Below are positions 13,683 through 27,474 of a stretch of 38,173 nt of DNA, one piece after another. The stretch is from Actinomycetota bacterium (lineage in GTDB: Bacteria; Actinomycetota; CALGFH01): assembly GCA_036280995.1 (NCBI GenBank), contig DASUPQ010000161.1:1-38173 (forward strand), read 5' to 3'. Under the pieces are notes generated by a model. It searched no databases and was not told the DNA's origin. It saw only the letters and a program-made list of their open reading frames with translations. Made by a program: the position numbers and the translations under genes. Numbering within the stretch: the first letter of the stretch is position 1; each line of letters begins with the position of its first letter.

Positions 13683-13827
13683 CACATGGTTTGGGAGCCC
13701 GGCCGGCGGTGTCAACCCGGGTGGGCCGGCCGCCGCCGGCCTCCCGGTCCCGCGGACGGTTGACTTGCTCGGCGGGAACCTGCGAGCCTCGCCCGATACG
13801 CGCGGGTCTGTGAGGTGCAGGGAGATC

Positions 13828-16800
13828 GTGACGGTTCATCCAGCTCGTGATGACGGCGAGGCCGAGGAGGCCAGGCGGCGCCGGCACCGGGTCCGGGCGG
13901 CGCTGACGGTCCTGGCCGTCCTGGCCGTGGTGGCGGGCGCGCCCCTGCTCGCCCAGGGGTACCGGGAGCTGCGCGACCAGGAGGGCGTGCGGCAGGTCGC
14001 GCTCCAGCTCGCCGGGGGGCGGGACGCCGCCTGCGCGGTCGTCCAGCCCGGCGCGGCCGGCTGCCCGGTGCCCGACGCCGCGGTGGCGCCGTACCGGTCG
14101 GCGGTGGAGGCCGACTGGTACCTGGTGGCCGGCTACGTCCTGGCCGGGGCAGGGGTGTTCGGGCTCGGCGCCCTGTTCCTGTACGGGTCGGGCGCCAGGC
14201 GGGTCAGCCGCTGGTGCCTGGGCGGCGTCGCCCTCGCCGGGGCGGCCGACGCGTGCGAGAACCTGGCCCTGCTGCGGGGACTGGGCACGCTCGGCCAGGG
14301 CCAGGGCGGCGACGACCCCTTCGCCCTGGCCTCCTCCCTGGCGGTGCTGAAGTTCGCCGTCGGCGGCCCGCTGCTGCCCGCCTTCGTGGTCGTGGGCAGC
14401 GTCCTGCTCGCCCGCCGGGTCCTCGGGCCGACGACGGTGCGCCGCATGGACGACCGCCCGCCCGGCCGGGGCGAGCCCAAGATCGTCCGGGCGGGCCAGC
14501 GCGACCCCGAGCCGGAGCGGCGTCCCGACATCATCCTGCCGCCGGCGGTGGCCGACGCCTCGACGGCCACCCTGTCGGCGACGGTCGGGCACTCGGGTCC
14601 CGACGTCCAGCGGGACCTCTACCTCAAGCAGGCGGCCGAGGAGGCCGGCAAGGCCGCGGGCGGCGGCCCTCCCCGGCCCGTCCTGGCCGACCCGCTGCCG
14701 TCGCGCTGGCGCAACGCCGGCCGGGTCCCGCCTGGTCGGCCCCCGGCCGAGGTCGGCATCTGCGCCTCGGGCGGCGGGATCCGCTCGGCCTCGGTCACCC
14801 TGGGGGCGCTCCAGGCGCTCCAGGCCAAGGTCCTCCCCCGGGCCCGCTACCTGGTGTCGGTGTCGGGCGGCGGCTACATGACCGGCGCCTTCCAGCTGGC
14901 CCTGACCGGGGCCAACCCCGGGGCGGAGTCGCTGGCCCGGCCGGAGGACGTGTTCACGCCGGGGTCGGCCGAGGAGGACCACCTGCGGCGCCACGGCAAG
15001 TACCTGGCCGACGGCTTCCGCGAGTGGGCGACGGCCCTCGGCGTGGTCCTGCGCGGGGTGGCCGCCTCGCTCAGCCTGCTGACCCTCTGCGTGGTCGTGC
15101 TCGGGGTCGGGCTCAACGCCTTCTACCGGGCGGCCCCGGTCGTCGACGTCACCCGGTTCCTCCCCCGGTTCGACCCGGCGAGCGGGCCGGAGCACGCCGG
15201 CTTCCCGGCGCCGACCCCGGCCGTCTGGTGGGCGCTGGCCGCCGGGGCGGCCGTGGCCGCCGCCGCCTGGGTGGTGTTCATGGTCAGGCTGCTGGCCGGC
15301 AACCGGTGGTTGATCGTGGTCCGGGCCGCCCGCAACGTCTTCCGGGTCGCCGTCGGCATCACCGCGGTGGTCGCCGTCTACGCCGTCGTCGTGCCGGTGG
15401 TCGTCTGGGCGATGACGGGGCTCACCTGGGCGATCGGGATCGAGAACCCGGTGCCGGCCGCCTCCTTCACCGCGATCGTCACCACCCTGCTGACCTGGCT
15501 CGGCGCCCTGGCCAGCACGACCTGGCGCCGCACCGAGAGGGTGCGGGCCAGCGGGGCCAAGCTGGGGCTGCGCGGGCTGCTGGGCGGCCGCGGCCAGGGC
15601 GAGGTGGTCGAGCGGCAGGTCGCGACCGGGTTCGGGCAGACCCTGATCGTCTGGGCGGCGCACGCCGTGCTGGCGTTCGTGTTCGTGTTCGTGGCCGCCT
15701 GGACGACCGCGGCCGCCCACCGCTGGCCGCCCTGGCTGGGCCCGGTCCTGCTCGGCGTGCTCGTCGGGGCGGGCTTCCTGATCGACCAGACCTGGCTCGG
15801 GCTGCACCCCTTCTACCGGCGCCGGCTGGCCTCGGCGTTCGCCGTCCGCCGGGCCACCATGCCCGACGGCGGCGTCGGCGCCCTCGCCTACAGCTTCGAG
15901 GAGCCGACCACCCTCAGCCGGTACGGCCAGCGTGCCCCCGGCTTCCCCCAGGTCATCTTCGTGGCCGCGGCCGCCCTGTCGGGCCAGTCGCGGACCCCGC
16001 CGGGCCGCCGGGCGGTCTCGTTCACGCTGTCGGGGGACTACGTCGGCGGGCCGGACGTCGGCTGGGTGCGGACCAGCTTCCTGGAGGACAACTGCAAGCC
16101 CGCCCTCCAGCGGGACGTGACCGTCCAGGCGTCCATGGCCGTGTCCGGGGCGGCGATCGCGTCCGCCATGGGCCGCCACGCGGCCGCCGTGCAGCGGCTG
16201 CTGGCCCTGTCCAACGTCCGGCTCGGCACCTGGCTGCCCAACCCGGCGTTCCTGGCCGCCCTGGGACGCACGAGCACCGACTGGCGGACCCCGCGCCTGC
16301 CCAACGCCCGCCGGCTGCCCTACCAGCTGCGCGAGATCATCGGCGCCTACCCGGCCGAGGGCCGGATGCTGCTCTGCACCGACGGCGGCCACTGGGAGAA
16401 CCTCGGCCTGGTCGAGCTGCTGCGCCACCGCTGCCGGACCGTCTACTGCATCGACGCCAGCGGCGACGCGCCGCCGTTCGCCACCACCCTGGCCGAGGCG
16501 ATCACCCTCGCCTACGAGGAGCTGGGCGTGCGCATCACCCTGCCCGACCCCGGCGGCCTGGTCCCGGGCAGCGCCGACCCGCTGCAGCCGTCGGGGGTGC
16601 TGGAGCGGCTGAACGCCCGCCTGTCCCGGGAGGCGGTGGTTTGTGGCGTGATCGAGTACCCGGAGCCGTTCTCGGTCGACGGCGGCGAGCCGTCCTGCAA
16701 GGGCACGCTGATCGTGGCCAAGGCCGTGCTCACCCCCAAGATGCCCTACGAGCTGCTCACCTACGCCCTCAAGGAGGCCGCCTTCCCGCGCCAGAGCACC

Positions 16801-16959
16801 GGCGACCAGTTCTTCGACCACGAGCAGTTCGACGCCTACCGGGCCCTTGGCCACTTCATCGGCACGGCCGCCCTCGACAAGACGGAGGCCGGCGAGGCCG
16901 AGCCGCCCGAGCCGCCGGCGCAGCTCAGCCGCTGGCGACGGCGCCGACGGCGGCGGTGA
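13828..16959 (+). CDS. Polytopic membrane protein with patatin-like phospholipase core
   Basis: A large protein (1043 residues from this start) probably sited in the cytoplasmic membrane. Four hydrophobic segments precede a patatin/cPLA2-type active site: oxyanion motif SGGGIRS (314-320) and probable nucleophile Ser346 in VSVSGGGY. A further group of membrane segments (about 410-660) interrupts the catalytic domain. The likely catalytic Asp852 lies in [11 protein letters not shown]. The C-terminus is very basic (WRRRRRRR). Serine lipase or acyl hydrolase activity on membrane lipids is inferred; the biological role is unknown. GTG at 13828 follows AGGGAG at short spacing. An upstream TTG at 13765 and GTG at 13810 are possible. 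Divergent from paaZ and convergent with the next gene, 7 bases apart. Confidence 0.82.
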
Positions 16960-16966
16960 GGGCGCC

Positions 16967-17833
16967 TCAGCCGGTGGCGGCGCGGCCGGCCCAGCGGCGG
17001 GCGCCGTCGACCCGGGTGACGGTGCCGAACGGCTCGGGGAAGTGGGCCGGGGCGAGCCACATGCGCTCGGACTCGAGCTGGTCCAGGAGGCGGCGGCGGG
17101 TCGACCGGGCCAGGTCGGGGTCGACGTCGGCGGCCGGGCACCAGTCGGGCTCGCCGACCTGCGCCGGGTGGTTGGCGACGTCGCCCCAGAGCAGGACCGC
17201 GTCGTCGCCGGAGCGGACGAGCAGGCTCTGCGAGCCGGGCGTGTGCCCGGGGGTGTGGACGAGGCGGAGCTGGGCGTCAAGGGCCCGGTCGCCGTCCAGC
17301 AGCTCGGCCACCCCGAGCGCCTGGAGCGGGGCCACGCAGCGGTCGAAGGCGACCCTGGTCTCGGCGGGCCGGGCCGCGAACAGGTCCCAGTCGGCCCGCT
17401 GGACCAGGTAGCGGGCCCGCGGGAACCACGGCCGGGGCCGGTCGCCGTCCCAGGCCAGGTTCCAGCCGACGTGGTCCAGGTGCAGGTGGGTGAGGACGAC
17501 CAGGTCGATCTCGTCCGGCTCGACCCCGGCGTCGGCCAGCTCGGCGGGCAGCCGTCCCGGCGTGCCGATCCAGCCGGCCCCGGGCACGCCCGGGCCGCCG
17601 ACGCCGGTGTCGACCAGGACGACCAGGTCGCGGGAGCGGACCACGAAGCACCAGTCGCGCAGCCGCCATCGGTCGGGGCCGCCGAACGCCCCGGGATGGC
17701 GCGACCGCCAGGGCGCCCAGGCGGCCGCCGGGACCTGGGGGAAGGCCTCGGCCAGGGGGGCCGGGAAGTCGCCGGTGACGTCGCAGTGGGCGGTGACCTG
17801 GACGGTGCCGACGGTCAGCGTCCGGGCGGCCAT
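16967..17833 (-). CDS. Metallo-beta-lactamase-fold hydrolase
   Basis: A 288-residue MBL-fold enzyme with the zinc motif THLHLDH (His116, His118, Asp120, His121). Later ligands are His in HTPGHTPGSQ, Asp in LLWGDV and a final His in APAHFPEPFG. It resembles lactonase or hydrolase members of the family; the substrate is unknown. AAGGAGG before the ATG overlaps the stop codon of the EamA gene (TGAAGGAGG), so it is the last gene of a coupled four-gene unit. Confidence 0.9.
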   Translation of the reverse strand: MAARTLTVGTVQVTAHCDVTGDFPAPLAEAFPQVPAAAWAPWRSRHPGAFGGPDRWRLRDWCFVVRSRDLVVLVDTGVGGPGVPGAGWIGTPGRLPAELADAGVEPDEIDLVVLTHLHLDHVGWNLAWDGDRPRPWFPRARYLVQRADWDLFAARPAETRVAFDRCVAPLQALGVAELLDGDRALDAQLRLVHTPGHTPGSQSLLVRSGDDAVLLWGDVANHPAQVGEPDWCPAADVDPDLARSTRRRLLDQLESERMWLAPAHFPEPFGTVTRVDGARRWAGRAATG

Positions 17834-17843
17834 GGGGCCTCCT

Positions 17844-18743
17844 TCAGCGCTCGGGGCGGGAGGTCAGCCAGGCGCCGGTGACCACCAGGGCGGTGCCGGC
17901 GACGGCCGAGGGGGCCACCTGCTCGTCGAGCACGAGCACGCCGAGGACGATGGCCACGACCGGGATGAAGTAGGTGGCGACGGCCCCTCGGGGGCCGCCG
18001 ACGCGGCCGACCAGGGTCGTCATCAGGACGAAGGCGAGCCCGGTGCCGAGGATCCCCAGGGGCAGCATGGCCAGCACCGACGGCCAGGCGAACGAGGAGC
18101 CGCGAAGCCCCCACAGCCCGAACGGCAGCAGCAGGACCAGGGCGGCGAGCTGGGCCCGGAGCAGCACCGGCAGGGCGCCGTGGCGCTGCTGCAGGGGCAC
18201 GGCCAGGTTGACGGCCAGGCCGTAGCAGAGGACGGCCAGCACGACCAGGCTGGCCCCGAGCATGGTGGCCCGCGAGCCGGCCAGCTGGGGCCAGGAGATG
18301 GCCAGCACGCCGGCGAACCCGACGAGGAGCCCGAGGGCGTGGACGCGGGGCAGGGGCCGGCGCAGCAGCACCACCGCCCAGGCGGCCCCGGCCAGCGGCA
18401 CGGCCCCGTTGAGCATCCCGGCCACCGACGAGTCGATCCACTGCTGGGCCACCGGGAACAGGATCAGCGGCAGGCCGGACCAGATGATCCCGAGGAAGGC
18501 CACCCGCAGGCGGTCGTCGCGGCCGATCGGGCGGCGGGCCGCCGGGACCAGGGCGAGTGCCGCCACGCCGAGGGCGACCCGGGCGACGGCGATCACCCCC
18601 GGCTCCAACGTCTCCAGCCCGATGTCGATGAACAGGAACGACGACCCCCAGATGAGGGCCACGCTGACCAGCAGGGCCCACTCGGCGGCGCCGAAGGACC
18701 CGGGGCGGCTGCCCCGCCCGGTCTCCAGCAGCCGCCGGCTCAC
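17844..18743 (-). CDS. EamA/DMT family transporter
   Basis: A 299-residue membrane protein with ten hydrophobic segments and two EamA repeats, as in drug/metabolite transporters (opening ALIWGSSFLFIDIGLETLEP; second half from about residue 155). Such proteins usually export amino acids, amines or other small metabolites. The GTG start overlaps the stop of the PLP-enzyme gene as GTGA. Within the operon it is a natural candidate exporter for the product or a toxic intermediate of the neighbouring enzymes. Confidence 0.88.
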   Translation of the reverse strand: MSRRLLETGRGSRPGSFGAAEWALLVSVALIWGSSFLFIDIGLETLEPGVIAVARVALGVAALALVPAARRPIGRDDRLRVAFLGIIWSGLPLILFPVAQQWIDSSVAGMLNGAVPLAGAAWAVVLLRRPLPRVHALGLLVGFAGVLAISWPQLAGSRATMLGASLVVLAVLCYGLAVNLAVPLQQRHGALPVLLRAQLAALVLLLPFGLWGLRGSSFAWPSVLAMLPLGILGTGLAFVLMTTLVGRVGGPRGAVATYFIPVVAIVLGVLVLDEQVAPSAVAGTALVVTGAWLTSRPER

Positions 18744-19909
18744 GGCCGCCCCCCGGGGGCGCCGTCGAGGACCTCGAGGGCGCGGTCGATGTCGGCCTCG
18801 GTGTTGTAGAGGTGCGGGGAGACCCGCAGCCGCCCCCGCCGGAAGGCCGCGTCGACCCCGGCGGCGGTCAGCGCCTGGTGCAGTGGCGGGTTGCGCTCGG
18901 GGCGGTGGTCGCCGAAGACGACCAGGGCCGAGCGGGCCGGCCCCCGCCTGGGGCTGACCAGCTCGTAGCGGTCCGGGTCGAGACCCCCGACGAACCGGTC
19001 GACCAGGTGCTGGTCCCAGGCGGCGACCCGGTCGATGCCGAGGCCGAGGAGGTACTCGACCGAGGCCGTCCAGGGCTGGAAGGTGAGGAAGTTGGCCGTG
19101 CCGAACACGTCCCAGCCGGCGGCGCCGACGTCCTCGCGGAGCCGGTAGCCGCTGTCCTGGCCGAGGTCGTCCTGGCCCTGGTGGGCCAGCCAGTAGGCCG
19201 GCCGGTAGGTGAGCGAGGCCAGCAGGTCGGGAGCCAGCCAGCAGAAGCCGGTCCCGTACGGGCCGCAGAGCCACTTGAACCCGCAGCTGACCAGCGCGTC
19301 CACGGGCAGGGCGGCCAGGTCCAGGGGGACGGCCCCGACGGCCTGGGAGCCGTTGACGACGAAGGTCACCCCGGCCCGGCGGCACACCCCACCCACCGTG
19401 GCCAGGTCGACCGTGTGCCCGGTGAAGGAGAACACCCAGCTGGTGCAGAACAGCCGGGTCGCCGGGGTCAGCTCCGCCTCGAGCTGCCCGGCCTCCAGCC
19501 TCCCGCCCTCGGGCTTGAGCAGCCGGACCCGCACCCCGCGGTCGGCCAGGGGCAGCCAGGGCACGATGGTGGCCGGGAAGTCCCCGTCGACCAGCAGGAC
19601 CTCGTCGCCCTCGCGCCAGGGGACGCCCTGGACGAGCAGGTGCAGTCCGTAGCTGGTGCTGTTGCCCAGGGTCACCTGGTCGGCCGGCACCCCGGCGAGC
19701 CGCCCAAGGGCGTCCTTGAGCCGCCGTGGGACCGCGTCGAAGGCCTCGTCGCGGATCCGGTGCGGCGCCGCCTTGTCGGCCAGCGCCCGCTCGGCCGCCG
19801 CCACCGCGACCCGGGGCAACGGCCCCTGGTGGGCGCAGTTCAGCCAGGCCCGCCCTTCGAACCCGCCGAAGTCCCCGGCGGCGTCCAGCCGGGGCCCTTC
19901 GCCGGTCAA
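18740..19909 (-). CDS. Class V aminotransferase-fold PLP enzyme
   Basis: A 389-residue PLP enzyme of the cysteine desulfurase / isopenicillin-N-epimerase-like group. The PLP lysine is Lys212 in SCGFKWLCGPYGTGF. A phosphate-binding GNSTSYGLHLL lies near residue 82. The Asp that normally contacts the pyridine nitrogen in the D-x-x-Q/H motif is Asn186 here (VVNGSQAVG), read clearly as AAC. This could shift chemistry away from transamination or desulfuration. The start is TTG at 19909, overlapping the stop of the sulfite-oxidase-like gene (TTGA). The substrate is unknown. Confidence 0.87.
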   Translation of the reverse strand: MTGEGPRLDAAGDFGGFEGRAWLNCAHQGPLPRVAVAAAERALADKAAPHRIRDEAFDAVPRRLKDALGRLAGVPADQVTLGNSTSYGLHLLVQGVPWREGDEVLLVDGDFPATIVPWLPLADRGVRVRLLKPEGGRLEAGQLEAELTPATRLFCTSWVFSFTGHTVDLATVGGVCRRAGVTFVVNGSQAVGAVPLDLAALPVDALVSCGFKWLCGPYGTGFCWLAPDLLASLTYRPAYWLAHQGQDDLGQDSGYRLREDVGAAGWDVFGTANFLTFQPWTASVEYLLGLGIDRVAAWDQHLVDRFVGGLDPDRYELVSPRRGPARSALVVFGDHRPERNPPLHQALTAAGVDAAFRRGRLRVSPHLYNTEADIDRALEVLDGAPGGRP

Positions 19910-21015
19910 GCCGGTCCGGCCGCGGCGTCGGCGGGGTCGCGGACGGTGACCTGGACCCGCTGGACGGCGTTGTTGACGTAGCCGCCGGTGTTCCAGGGGG
20001 CCTCGAGGGGCTGGGTGTTGCCGGCGGCGTCGGTGGCCCGCGAGCACAGCTCGTACGACCCGGGGGCCGCCTCCCAGGCGAAGCGCCACCCGGCCCAGGC
20101 CCAGGGGGACGGCTGGCCGTCCAGCTCGGCCGGCCGCCAGGTGCGGCCGCCGTCGCTGCTGACCTCGACGGCGGCCACCGGGGCCAGGCCCGACCAGGCC
20201 CGGCCGGTCAGCAGGTGGCGGCCGGGGGCGAGGAAGCGCCGGCGGGACTCGAACTCGGGGATGCCGGGCGGCAGCAGCAGCGAGCGCGGCTGGATGCGGG
20301 TCACGGGCGTGCCCGGGTCGTCCTCGGAGGCGTGGATCAGGTAGGTGCCGGTCTGCTGGTAGCCCTCGAACGGCTCGCCGAGCACGCTGATCCGGCGGAG
20401 CCATTTGACCGAGGTCATGCCGTACCAGCCGGGCACGACCAGCCGCAGCGGGTGGCCGTGCTGGGGTGGCAGGGGCCGGCCGTTGACCGCCCAGGCGAGC
20501 AGGATCTCGGGGCGCATGGCCTCGGCCAGGGGCAGGCTGCGCTCGTAGTCGTGCTCGAGCCCGCCCTGGACGCCCCGGTCGGCGCCGGCGAACGCGACCT
20601 CGACGGCGTCGGAGCCGACCCCGGCCTCCTCCAGCAGGGGGGCCAGCGGCGTGCCGGTCCACTCGGCCGTCCCCACCGCCTCCTCCAGCCAGGGCTGGCT
20701 GACCGGCCGCGGGTCGAGGCGGGCCCGGCCGTTGCCGGCGCACTCCAGGGTCACCGGCGCCGTCACCGCCGGACGCCGCCGGAGCTCCTCCATGGAGAGG
20801 CTGATCGGCGTGGCCACCCGCCCGCCGATCTCCAGCCGCCAGGTCCGCTCGTCGGCCGCCGGGATGTCGAAGTGGATCAGCAGGTAGTGGAGGCCGACCG
20901 GGGTGATGTCGTAGCGCAGCGCCTCCAGCGGCATGCCGTGGTTGCGTGCCGCCAGGGCCAGCTCCTCGAGGGTGATGCCGCTCGTGCGACCTTCGCTGGC
21001 CGCCAGGTCGGTCAT
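19906..21015 (-). CDS. Sulfite oxidase family molybdopterin-dependent oxidoreductase
   Basis: A 369-residue protein with the molybdopterin-binding domain of the sulfite oxidase family; the Mo-ligating Cys is Cys92 (TLECAGNGR). A dimerisation/immunoglobulin-like domain follows from about residue 245 (VEVSSDGGRTWRPAEL). No signal peptide, twin-arginine motif or heme domain is visible, so it appears to be cytoplasmic, unlike many bacterial sulfite dehydrogenases. Sulfite or another oxyanion is a guess for the substrate. AAGGAGAGG precedes the ATG. It heads a run of four overlapping or abutting genes, with the P-type ATPase remnant just upstream. Confidence 0.9.
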   Translation of the reverse strand: MTDLAASEGRTSGITLEELALAARNHGMPLEALRYDITPVGLHYLLIHFDIPAADERTWRLEIGGRVATPISLSMEELRRRPAVTAPVTLECAGNGRARLDPRPVSQPWLEEAVGTAEWTGTPLAPLLEEAGVGSDAVEVAFAGADRGVQGGLEHDYERSLPLAEAMRPEILLAWAVNGRPLPPQHGHPLRLVVPGWYGMTSVKWLRRISVLGEPFEGYQQTGTYLIHASEDDPGTPVTRIQPRSLLLPPGIPEFESRRRFLAPGRHLLTGRAWSGLAPVAAVEVSSDGGRTWRPAELDGQPSPWAWAGWRFAWEAAPGSYELCSRATDAAGNTQPLEAPWNTGGYVNNAVQRVQVTVRDPADAAAGPA

Positions 21016-21030
21016 GGTGATCCTCTCCTT

Positions 21031-21289
21031 CTACTGGAGGTCGAGACCGCGGAGGAGCTGGGCGTTGAGGGCGACGACGATGGTGGACAGGCTCATCAGG
21101 ATGGCGCCGACGGCCGGGGCCAGGGTGATGCCGGCCCAGGCCAGGGCGCCGGCGGCGACCGGCACGGCCACCAGGTTGTAGTAGCCGGTCGCCCACCCCA
21201 GATTCTGCAGCATCTTGCCGCAGCCGTCCCCTCCCCCCCGCCTCCACCCGGGCCCGGACCGCCGTGTCGGGCGGGGTGAAGTGGTCCAT
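21031..21289 (-). pseudogene. Remnant of a heavy-metal P1B-type ATPase C-terminus
   Basis: Positions 21222-21031 encode a C-terminal hairpin of metal-transporting P-type ATPases: [18 protein letters not shown], then [20 protein letters not shown], then NAQLLRG and a stop. All catalytic domains are missing. The ATG at 21289 overlaps the epimerase stop (TGATG) and starts another frame ([17 protein letters not shown]). A run of seven C at 21233-21239 separates the two frames. One base change there would join them into a peptide of about 85 residues. Deletion of a metal pump gene is the simplest reading, and it fits the metal-type MerR gene upstream. Confidence 0.7.
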
Positions 21290-22152
21290 CAGAGCAGCGA
21301 TCTCCAGGTGAACTCGGGGTCGTAGCCCAGCAGCCGCCTCGCCTTGTCGATGCCGAGGAGGGTGCCGTGCTCGGCCAGGTCGTCCTTGACGGGTACCCCG
21401 GGAAACACCTCGGCCATCAGCTCGCGGCTGGGACGGCGCATGACGGTGTCGGCGGCGGCGATGATGAACGCCTCGGCCCCGGCCACCTCGGCCTCCAGGG
21501 CGCGGCGCACGGCCTGGGCCACGTGCGACTCGTCGACGTAGCCCCACAGGTTCCAGCTGCGCAGCCGCGGGTCGTCCCAGAACGACGGGAACCGCTGGTA
21601 GTCGGCGCGGGTCATGATGTTGGAGAAGCGCAGGCCGAGGATCGGGATGCCGGTCCAGCGGGAGAACTGGCGGGCCATCTCCTCGCCCACGACCTTGGAC
21701 AGGGCGTAGGAGGTCTCGGGGCGCAGCTCGTGGGCCTCGTCGATCGGCGCGTAGTCGGGCGGGCGGTCGAAGGGGCGGCCGAGGGTCGTCTCGCTGGACG
21801 CCCAGACCACCCGCTCCAGGCCAAGGCGGGCCGCGGCCGCGAACACGGTGTGGGTGCTGGTGACGTTGTTCCGGAACACGACGTCGGGGGTGGCGTGCAC
21901 CGGCGAGGGGATGGCGGCCAGGTGGACGACCGCCTGGATGCCTGGCAGCACCTCCCCGCCGCTGAGCGCTTCGAGGGTCTGGCCGAAGTCGGTCAGGTCG
22001 GCGGGCAGGAACGGCGCCGGCGAGTCGGCGTCGCTCGACTCGGCCGAGGGGACCCGGTCGAGGTTGAGCACCTGGTGCCCGTGCTCGAGCAGGTCGCGGA
22101 CGACGGCGCGCCCGGCCTTCCCGCTTCCCCCGGTGACGGCGATCCTGGCCAT
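21289..22152 (-). CDS. NAD-dependent epimerase/dehydratase (extended SDR)
   Basis: A 287-residue extended short-chain dehydrogenase. The NAD(P) motif TGGSGKAG is at residues 7-14, an HLAAIPSP segment follows the middle strand, and the catalytic Tyr-x3-Lys is in SYALSKVVGEEM. Probable substrates are nucleotide sugars or other sugar derivatives. GAGGGGAG precedes the ATG. It lies 31 bases after the MerR stop on the same strand, so it is probably read from the MerR promoter. Its stop overlaps the ATG of the ATPase remnant, so it may have been placed ahead of the former pump gene. Confidence 0.88.
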   Translation of the reverse strand: MARIAVTGGSGKAGRAVVRDLLEHGHQVLNLDRVPSAESSDADSPAPFLPADLTDFGQTLEALSGGEVLPGIQAVVHLAAIPSPVHATPDVVFRNNVTSTHTVFAAAARLGLERVVWASSETTLGRPFDRPPDYAPIDEAHELRPETSYALSKVVGEEMARQFSRWTGIPILGLRFSNIMTRADYQRFPSFWDDPRLRSWNLWGYVDESHVAQAVRRALEAEVAGAEAFIIAAADTVMRRPSRELMAEVFPGVPVKDDLAEHGTLLGIDKARRLLGYDPEFTWRSLL

Positions 22153-22183
22153 GGCGGCTCCCCTCTGCTCGGAGGCACCAAGG

Positions 22184-22609
22184 CTATCGGCTGCCGAAGG
22201 GGATGACGTCGCCGGCGCACCACCAGCGGGCGGCGGCGCTGCTGATCTCGGGGCAGGGCGAGTCGGGCTGGCGCTCCAGCAGGCTGGTGAGCTCGGCCTC
22301 CAGGGACCGGAGGCGCTCCAGCTCGGCCCGGACCTCGGCCAGCCGCCCCCGGAGCATGGTCTCGGTGTGCCCGCACGGGCACTGGCCCCGGTCGGCGACC
22401 TGGAGCAGCTCGCCGATCTCGCGCAGCCGCAGCCCGGCCCGCTGGGCGCCCTTGATGAGGCGCAGCCGGCCGAGGGCGTCCTGGTCGTAGAGCCGGTAGC
22501 CGGCCGCCGAGCGGGCCGGGGGCGGCAGCAGCCCGACCCGCTCGTAGTAGCGGACGGTGTCGGCGCTGAGGCCGGCCTGGGTGGCGAGGGCGGAGACGGT
22601 GAGGGCCAT
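22184..22609 (-). CDS. MerR family regulator, probably metal-responsive
   Basis: A 141-residue MerR protein with an N-terminal winged helix (VSALATQAGLSADTVRYYER), a RSAAGYRLYD wing and a dimerisation helix. Four Cys lie in or after that helix: Cys77 and Cys79 (QCPCGHT), Cys119 (SPCPE) and Cys131. Their spacing recalls the metal-binding Cys of MerR and ZntR, so sensing of a soft metal is likely, though the metal is not shown. The ATG at 22609 is preferred: a -10 hexamer ends six bases before it, implying a leaderless transcript. A longer frame to 22729 would read through the promoter. Confidence 0.88.
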   Translation of the reverse strand: MALTVSALATQAGLSADTVRYYERVGLLPPPARSAAGYRLYDQDALGRLRLIKGAQRAGLRLREIGELLQVADRGQCPCGHTETMLRGRLAEVRAELERLRSLEAELTSLLERQPDSPCPEISSAAARWWCAGDVIPFGSR

Positions 22610-22615
22610 GGCCCA

Positions 22616-22647
22616 AGGATAAACCTTGGAGCGCGCTCCAAGGTCAA
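22616..22647 (-). promoter_or_regulatory. MerR-type promoter with a perfect 22-base palindrome
   Basis: On the minus strand, -35 TTGACC (22647-22642) and -10 TTATCC (22622-22617, or TATCCT one base later) are separated by 19 or 20 bases, longer than the usual 17 and typical of MerR-activated promoters. The spacer holds a perfect palindrome (22623-22644), half-site ACCTTGGAGCG followed by its complement. The start of transcription would fall at or next to the MerR ATG. Confidence 0.85.
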
Positions 22648-22774
22648 CCCTACCGAGGCGCCCTCGTAGGCGAAACGTACGTAATTGCTCGTCAATACAT
22701 ACGATGACGAAGCTCGCCGAGGTTCCCATACTGGCCTCTGCAGCTTGACAAGCCGGGTTTCAGGGAGGGGCAAC

Positions 22775-24076: not shown

Positions 24077-24736
24077 ATGACCAGGGGCAGGGCCTGGCCG
24101 GGAGCCGCGGTGGGTGCCGTGGTCCTGCTCGCCCTGGGTGTGGCGCTGGCCGGCTGCACCGGGCCGCGGGCCCGCTACGCCGGGGTCAGCAGCACGGTGT
24201 CGACCGAAGCCCAGTCCCCGCCCCAGGAAGGGGCGGCGGCCGTCCGCGACTTCCGCTCGGTCCGCGGCTACCGGCCCACGCCGGTCCCGGTGCGGCTGGA
24301 GATCGCCAGGATCGGCGTCGACACGGCGCTGCAGCAGCTCGGCCAGGACGGCGGCGGGGCCGTCGAGGTGCCGACCGGGCCCCGCCAGTGGGAGGACGCC
24401 GGCTGGTACGCGGGCGAGGGCGGCACCCGGCCGGGCGACCCCGGCTCGGCGGTCATCCTCGGCCACGTCGACTCCAAGCGGGGGCCGGCGGTGTTCTACC
24501 GGTTGCGCGAGCTGCGGGCCGGCGACCCGGTGGTGGTCGTCCGGGCCGACGGCTCGCGGGTCCGGTTCGTGGTCGAGCGGGTCGAGCAGTACCCGAAGCG
24601 GCGCTTCCCCACCGAGGACGTCTACTACCCGACGCTGAGCCCGAAGCTGCGGCTGGTCACCTGCGGCGGCGCCTTCGACCCGGCCGCCGGCCACTACCGC
24701 GACAACGTGATCGCGTTCGCCAGCCTCAGCGGCTGA
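24077..24736 (+). CDS. Class F sortase
   Basis: A 219-residue sortase. The catalytic residues are His130 (LGHVD), Cys196 (LVTCGG) and Arg208 (GHYRDN), in the class F pattern with AVFYRL and the FP-x-x-x-VYYP segment. The N-terminus has a hydrophobic helix ending in LAGC, a lipobox at Cys27, so the enzyme may be lipid-anchored on the outer face of the membrane. Class F sortases are common in actinobacteria and their substrates are mostly unknown. It lies 15 bases after the two-domain lipoprotein gene and is probably cotranscribed. Confidence 0.92.
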   Translation: MTRGRAWPGAAVGAVVLLALGVALAGCTGPRARYAGVSSTVSTEAQSPPQEGAAAVRDFRSVRGYRPTPVPVRLEIARIGVDTALQQLGQDGGGAVEVPTGPRQWEDAGWYAGEGGTRPGDPGSAVILGHVDSKRGPAVFYRLRELRAGDPVVVVRADGSRVRFVVERVEQYPKRRFPTEDVYYPTLSPKLRLVTCGGAFDPAAGHYRDNVIAFASLSG

Positions 24737-27389: not shown

Positions 27390-27474
27390 GATCGTATGAC
27401 GACCGGGGCCACGGGTCGCGCGACCCCGGCCGAGCGGGATGCGGCCGGGGGCGGGTCCGTGAGCGCCGCGGCGG

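Follow-up and report, generated by a model that had tools for sequence, protein, structure and literature searches.

Four genes packed end to end lie on the minus strand of a contig of 38,173 nucleotides from an Actinomycetota bacterium (GenBank assembly GCA_036280995.1, contig DASUPQ010000161.1; this whole stretch is called the window below). In their order on that strand they encode a molybdoenzyme of the SUOX fold (SOX-like, for sulfite-oxidase-like), a class V enzyme of fold type I that uses pyridoxal phosphate (PLP), an exporter of the EamA family, and a hydrolase of the metallo-beta-lactamase (MBL) fold (Table 1). Reading the junctions directly from the DNA, we found that the SOX-like and PLP genes overlap by the four bases TTGA (GGCTTGACC) and the PLP and EamA genes by the four bases GTGA (CCGTGAGCC). 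At the EamA-MBL junction (GCTGAAGGAGGCCCCATG) the EamA stop codon TGA overlaps the Shine-Dalgarno sequence AAGGAGG, and the junction letters TGAAGGAGGCCCCATG represent the third coupling of the operon. The TTG start of the PLP gene and the GTG start of the EamA gene match the positions where the N-termini of aligned orthologues begin. Both coordinates and junctions, once re-read, agreed with the tight four-gene coupling claimed in a preliminary description of this locus. The four genes are a translationally coupled unit and a real operon, and their packing makes co-expression from one message very likely. A scan for sigma-70-like promoters between positions 16800 and 22800 returned no sites, although such a scan says little for an actinobacterium. 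Ahead of the SOX-like gene, on the same strand, lie a gene for an NAD-dependent epimerase and what is left of a copper ATPase gene, its tail, and the unit is not obviously confined to four genes.

Table 1. Genes of the operon and features preceding it on the same strand, in window coordinates.
Feature	Position	Strand	Details
SUOX-fold molybdoenzyme (SOX-like) gene	21015-19906	minus	369 aa
Fold type I class V PLP gene	19909-18740	minus	389 aa, TTG start
EamA-family (DMT) exporter gene	18743-17844	minus	299 aa, GTG start
MBL-fold hydrolase gene (lactonase/organophosphatase type)	17833-16967	minus	288 aa
Copper P-type ATPase C-terminal remnant, 60 codons	21031-21213	minus	TIGR01511 4.9e-15, profile positions 489-542 of 542
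NAD-dependent epimerase/dehydratase gene	21289-22152	minus	PF01370; 93% identical copy in G001
MerR-family regulator gene	22184-22609	minus	PF13411 on 22184-22729; start inferred from domain position

The general family names given in the preliminary description were borne out by Pfam matches, all above cut-off. The SOX-like protein matched Oxidored_molyb (PF00174, 8.2e-59) and Mo-co_dimer (PF03404, 1.2e-12), the PLP protein Aminotran_5 (PF00266, 3.5e-26; 92.5 bits vs a cut-off of 21.5), the EamA protein PF00892 (4.9e-30; 105 bits vs 28.2), and the MBL protein Lactamase_B (PF00753, 6e-20). No NCBIfam model of a named function was matched above its cut-off by any of the four operon proteins.

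Conservation of the gene order was assessed in 396 genomes of the phylum, an evenly drawn sample that includes the window's own genome and was searched with each of the four proteins. Orthologues were accepted at E-values up to 1e-90 for SOX, 1e-45 for MBL, 1e-45 for EamA and 1e-50 for PLP, and were found in 50 (SOX), 61 (EamA), 19 (MBL) and 2 (PLP) genomes. Outside the window's genome, SOX and EamA orthologues co-occurred in 15 genomes, SOX and MBL in 9, EamA and MBL in 2, and PLP and MBL in 1, with no pair of orthologues 20 kb or less apart; the nearest pair in the sample (SOX-EamA, in genome G225) was separated by 71 kb. We fetched 40 neighborhoods from other genomes (20 SOX, 14 EamA, 6 MBL), several of them on contigs of just 3–5 kb, and called their genes with a simple purpose-written caller. 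With the window proteins as queries, EamA or MBL was found beside SOX in 0/20 of these neighborhoods; SOX, PLP or MBL stood beside EamA in 0/14, and SOX, PLP or EamA beside MBL in 0/6. For the PLP protein, a pattern-based scan of the genome_contigs collection gave 87 relatives, of which 80 were kept, with 12 (L012-L023) at 50–58% identity. At these 12 loci, tblastn at 1e-8 detected no SOX, EamA or MBL in the available locus DNA. The PLP query found a single relative in the plasmid collection (E 1e-30), on a haloarchaeal plasmid, and none of its six annotated neighbors is named as SOX, EamA or MBL. The same four-gene order, which the preliminary description had proposed to look for in other genomes, was thus not found in the same-genus genome described below, in the phylum sample, or around the PLP orthologues. 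As far as searched, the operon was found only in this genome.

The order- and class-level samples comprised three genomes including the window's own, the other two being G001 (same genus, 86% complete) and G002 (same family). G002 encodes SOX, MBL and EamA proteins of 69%, 61% and 77% identity, on three contigs and with different neighbors; its SOX gene lies amid genes that read, from their open reading frames (ORFs), as cytochrome-oxidase genes. The EamA protein of G001 is 86% identical and also has different neighbors, the adjoining gene looking, by reading, like a transporter of the major facilitator superfamily. At this locus, the DNA similarity of G001 to the window consisted of 872 bases of the EamA gene, plus one 48-base match elsewhere. 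At the phylum-search thresholds SOX, MBL and PLP had no match in this 86% complete genome, in which weaker homologues exist (SOX at 40–42% identity, PLP at 33%).

Upstream of the operon, G001 contig L218 is collinear with the window from 28345 to 21281, apart from two indels. The window shares the epimerase stop/start overlap of G001, but the ATPase tail is reached about 75 bases later. In G001 a His-rich ORF (MEHHDQHGGHGDHA) begins right after the epimerase stop, before the contig end. The ATPase remnant in the window corresponds to the last 55–60 residues of a copper P-type ATPase; it ends 15 bases before the SOX-like gene, whose Shine-Dalgarno sequence AAGGAG directly follows the remnant's stop codon. 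Positions 21031-21288, between epimerase and SOX, read as a copper ATPase gene cut to its start and its last ~60 codons. A search with the 60-residue tail found it in 0/20 SOX neighborhoods and 0/40 neighborhoods overall.

The window's genome is in 959 contigs, and in so fragmented a draft the operon might be thought an assembly chimera. We consider this extremely improbable, because random joins would hardly yield two 4-base overlaps of stop and start, with start codons in agreement with the N-termini of orthologues, and because the upstream synteny with G001 extends to the end of the epimerase gene. We regard it as probable, with some reserve, that the operon is private to this lineage, its four genes having been inherited independently, and that it lies next to a copper-ATPase gene that has been gutted. 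The operon would have been assembled in the window's lineage out of genes that are found apart from one another in relatives. The epimerase-ATPase pair would be ancestral; the window's lineage would have lost the middle of the ATPase gene, whose remains the four genes now follow.

Several points weigh against this reading. G001 could have lost SOX, PLP and MBL, instead of never having had them, and its contig stops 49 bases past the epimerase, so that the downstream content is unseen. In each genome of the phylum sample only the few top first-look candidates were scored, and some co-locations could be hidden because many of the compared genomes are fragmented and several of the fetched contigs short. 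Within the PLP and EamA genes the minus strand has two terminator-like sites (vs 0.6 expected), which speak weakly against a single message; we gave them no weight because both sit in coding sequence. The tight coupling itself hints at selection for joint expression, and a class V PLP gene adjoins SOX, convergently, in 2 of the 20 SOX neighborhoods (L175 and L178).

The last two points would also favor a dedicated pathway, in which an S- or N-compound would undergo oxidation or reduction by the molybdoenzyme and cleavage by the PLP enzyme, with the hydrolase serving to open a lactone or ester and the EamA protein to export the product. So would the best solved match of the PLP protein, the cystine C-S lyase C-DES, with SufS within about 1 Z in structure. 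The window's genome also has moaA, above cut-off, and therefore molybdopterin can be made. Yet neither the order nor any pair was conserved in the samples, each partner occurs without the others, and the nine window proteins that were scanned include no known gene for sulfite, taurine or sulfonate. The PLP genes of L175 and L178, besides being convergent, belong to a different subfamily: they are 27–29% identical to the window's PLP protein, their best model is kynureninase, below cut-off, and they come from one genome family. A dedicated pathway appears unlikely to us, and the suggestion in the preliminary description that the four genes share one was not supported.

The predicted model of the SOX-like protein has a mean predicted local distance difference test score (pLDDT) of 78, low at residues 1-28 and 94-109. 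Compared with SorA (2blf) it gave Z 35.5 and a root-mean-square deviation of 2.9 Å over 329 aligned residues, at 34% identity, with chicken sulfite oxidase at Z 34.5 and the plant enzyme at 33.9 (best rows for SorA, chicken and plant, Z 33.9–35.6). The best sequence match in the PDB was a laboratory mutant of SorA, R55M, narrowly above the wild type. Active-site residues were counted in 30 sequences, comprising the window protein and 29 orthologues, from 51 places in the phylum search. The molybdenum ligand Cys92 (SorA Cys104) was kept in 30/30 copies, as were Arg97 (Arg109), His48 (His57) and Tyr225 (Tyr236), and it is likely that the fold and cofactor are intact. All 30 copies have Leu (Leu46 in the window) at the position of the substrate-binding Arg, SorA Arg55, which we take to be equivalent to chicken Arg138. 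A second homologue in the window's own genome (L002, 46% identity) retains Arg. No signal peptide was visible by eye in the first 40 residues of the SOX-like protein.

That sulfite-binding Arg is replaced by Leu in every copy examined makes a substrate other than sulfite likely. A sulfite detoxification operon, made up of a true sulfite oxidase and accessory genes, would account for the SUOX fold with its molybdenum Cys, Arg97, His48 and Tyr225, and for the closeness of the model to SorA. The uniform Leu tells against it. The human sulfite oxidase variant R160Q has activity under 5% (PMC10574614), and Arg78 of SorT is given as the final step in electron transfer to the cytochrome heme (PMC4760952). 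Residues 55 of SorA, 78 of SorT and 160 of the human enzyme would be one position, that of SorT being placed by way of the Cys104/Cys127 offset. NCBIfam scores of the SOX-like protein also fell far below cut-off (SorA 217.7 of 600 bits, SoxC 207.1 of 420, SorT 177.3 of 570), and the genome has its separate Arg-bearing homologue. We consider sulfite detoxification very unlikely. The label sulfite-oxidase-like, given in the preliminary description, held for the fold and failed for the sulfite-binding Arg. Identity as a PruR-type pterin-binding protein was tried and rejected: part of the SUOX fold is shared (Z 11.3–14.0), but the window protein keeps the molybdenum Cys. The literature searched gave no report of Leu-type SUOX proteins, an absence that is not proven. 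Orthologues of this type are present in 50/396 phylum genomes, and naming them sulfite oxidase by domain alone is probably wrong, because 30/30 examined copies have Leu.

The PLP protein was modeled with a mean pLDDT of 86. Its top structural row was C-DES (Z 42.7, 2.1 Å, 369 residues aligned, 23% identity), with SufS rows at up to Z 42.1. Lys212, the Schiff-base residue, and Gln189 align with the Lys and Gln of C-DES, while Asn186 aligns with the C-DES Asp. From its conservation and place, Arg362 would be the Arg that holds the substrate carboxylate. Position 186 is Asn in 12/12 close rows (11 distinct genes, since L011 and L017 are one gene), and Asp in 71/72 more distant rows; the one deviating row, L089, matches weakly, lacks the Lys as well and seems misaligned. 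L022, whose match misses the position, was left out of this count. Schiff-base Lys, Gln and C-terminal Arg are kept in 12/12 close rows. A tree of 51 rows, excluding those with less than 280 residues of the query or weaker than 1e-12, and L011 as the same gene as L017, placed the 13 Asn rows (the window, 11 genes and the haloarchaeal plasmid copy) on one side of a branch with support of 100/100; the plasmid copy was flagged for unusual letter composition. Hosts of the Asn rows are Actinomycetota, Acidobacteriota, Gemmatimonadota, Planctomycetota and Haladaptatus, and with this spread over several phyla the Asn trait is either old or spread by transfer. The NCBIfam scores were again under cut-off (SufS 66.3 of 475.1 bits, IscS 33.7 of 643.2, EgtE 66.2 of 400).

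Fold type I enzymes are said to conserve an Asp that contacts the PLP ring nitrogen (N1) in two sources (PMC10805701, PMC3870968), the second of which states for assembly-line fold type I domains that Asp and Lys are conserved with few exceptions. We found no report of a natural Asn at this site in the literature searched, although its absence is not proven. Loss of the Asp could mean that the PLP protein is a pseudo-enzyme which keeps the fold, perhaps as a regulator or dead paralogue. In line with this, the D180A change abolished the activity of EgtE (PMC10805701), and threonine aldolase D168N was much weaker (PMC5986058). Against a pseudo-enzyme stand the product still made by the D168 mutants of threonine aldolase (PMC5986058), the complete retention of Lys, Gln and Arg in the close rows and the presence of one fixed Asn across several phyla, with no scatter of losses. 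A single fixed residue in an otherwise retained site speaks for a change of chemistry and not for decay, and we think a pseudo-enzyme improbable.

We tentatively propose, as a possibility that we hold to be less than even, that the Asn rows are active enzymes of fold type I, forming a clade that has no name as yet. In these the Asp would be permanently replaced by Asn and the cofactor left unprotonated, as in fold type II enzymes, which have Ser at the ring-nitrogen position (PMC6411801). The reaction would be that of an amino-acid lyase or a similar one, and the enzyme would be coupled here to a molybdoenzyme subfamily without the sulfite-binding Arg. The term cysteine-desulfurase-type, used in the preliminary description, was right as to fold and wrong as to the N1-contacting Asp, which is Asn186. 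Judged by their active-site residues, neither protein should be filed as a sulfite oxidase or a cysteine desulfurase.

Some loci of Asn-type and other PLP genes showed further features. In two Solirubrobacterales genomes a related gene lies directly upstream of the PLP gene (L018:4887-5579 and L020:65-694), and in L017 an AsnC/Lrp-like gene, by ORF reading, has this place. The haloarchaeal plasmid copy (L219:1388-2497) is unannotated and has one in-frame stop. The PLP genes found next to SOX (L175:5870-7072 and L178:6412-7476) lie tail to tail with it in two genera of one family, and both neighborhoods also carry genes read as uvrB and uvrA.

For the exporter, a hydropathy count gave about 10 hydrophobic segments. 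The MBL protein has the ligand motifs HLHLDH at 116, HTPGH at 193, GD at 217 and PAH at 262; HxHxDH together with His and Asp ligands is the signature of MBL-fold dinuclear metallohydrolases. Its nearest solved relatives are the organophosphorus hydrolases 4le6 (95.3 bits) and 4o98, and it scored 107.2 bits with the NCBIfam model of AidB-type lactonases, under the cut-off of 360. Membership of these two families gives no pointer to a substrate.

Taken together, the four proteins would be made from one message. The molybdoenzyme may be a cytoplasmic SUOX-fold oxidoreductase acting on something other than sulfite. The PLP enzyme would bind an alpha-amino acid via Arg362 and work with an unprotonated ring nitrogen, which would disfavor transamination and suit beta-elimination (a C-S or similar lyase) or some other reaction in which little quinonoid forms. 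For the exporter and the hydrolase, lactonase-like in type, the substrates may be small molecules, not necessarily those of the molybdoenzyme and the PLP enzyme. In favor of an organosulfur pathway, one of the possibilities raised in the preliminary description, there is nothing here. The operon is ordinary as such, and coupling is not by itself a reason to assume a pathway; this locus suggests how easily units of its kind may come together. Of greater weight than the operon, and independent of it, are the two active-site changes, each of which runs through its clade, and a natural Asn family would cleanly test what the ring-nitrogen Asp is for.

The flanks of the operon showed some further features. 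Convergent with it, at 13765-16959, is a gene whose 1064-residue product matches patatin under the Pfam cut-off and has no counterpart at E 1e-30 in either G001 or G002. Upstream, about 506 bases of the window (22166-22671), with the MerR gene, are absent from the G001 contig, which has a 5-base gap there instead; the MerR-family protein reached no NCBIfam cut-off. Conversely, about 1.35 kb of G001 with one predicted gene (L218:904-2252) is absent from the window near 27440. Beside a gene of the LtrA family, a small secreted-looking protein (24077-24736) may be a sortase, judged by a sequence motif.

Set against known systems, the molybdoenzyme is like SorA, SorT and sulfite oxidase in its fold over nearly the full length, in the molybdenum Cys and in the equivalents of SorA His57, Arg109 and Tyr236. 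It differs from them in Leu46 for Arg55 and in scoring under the NCBIfam cut-offs, and no cytochrome gene was recognized among the scanned window neighbors. The PLP protein has the fold of SufS and IscS, but lies far below their cut-offs and is without the N1 Asp. With C-DES and EgtE it shares class V of fold type I and the aligned Lys and Gln, C-DES being its best match in both sequence and structure, whilst Asn186 for the N1 Asp and identities of 18% (EgtE) to 24% (C-DES) set it apart. The MBL hydrolase, although under the AidB cut-off, resembles the AidB-type lactonases and the OPHC2-like organophosphatases in its HxHxDH and further ligand motifs and in its match to 4le6.

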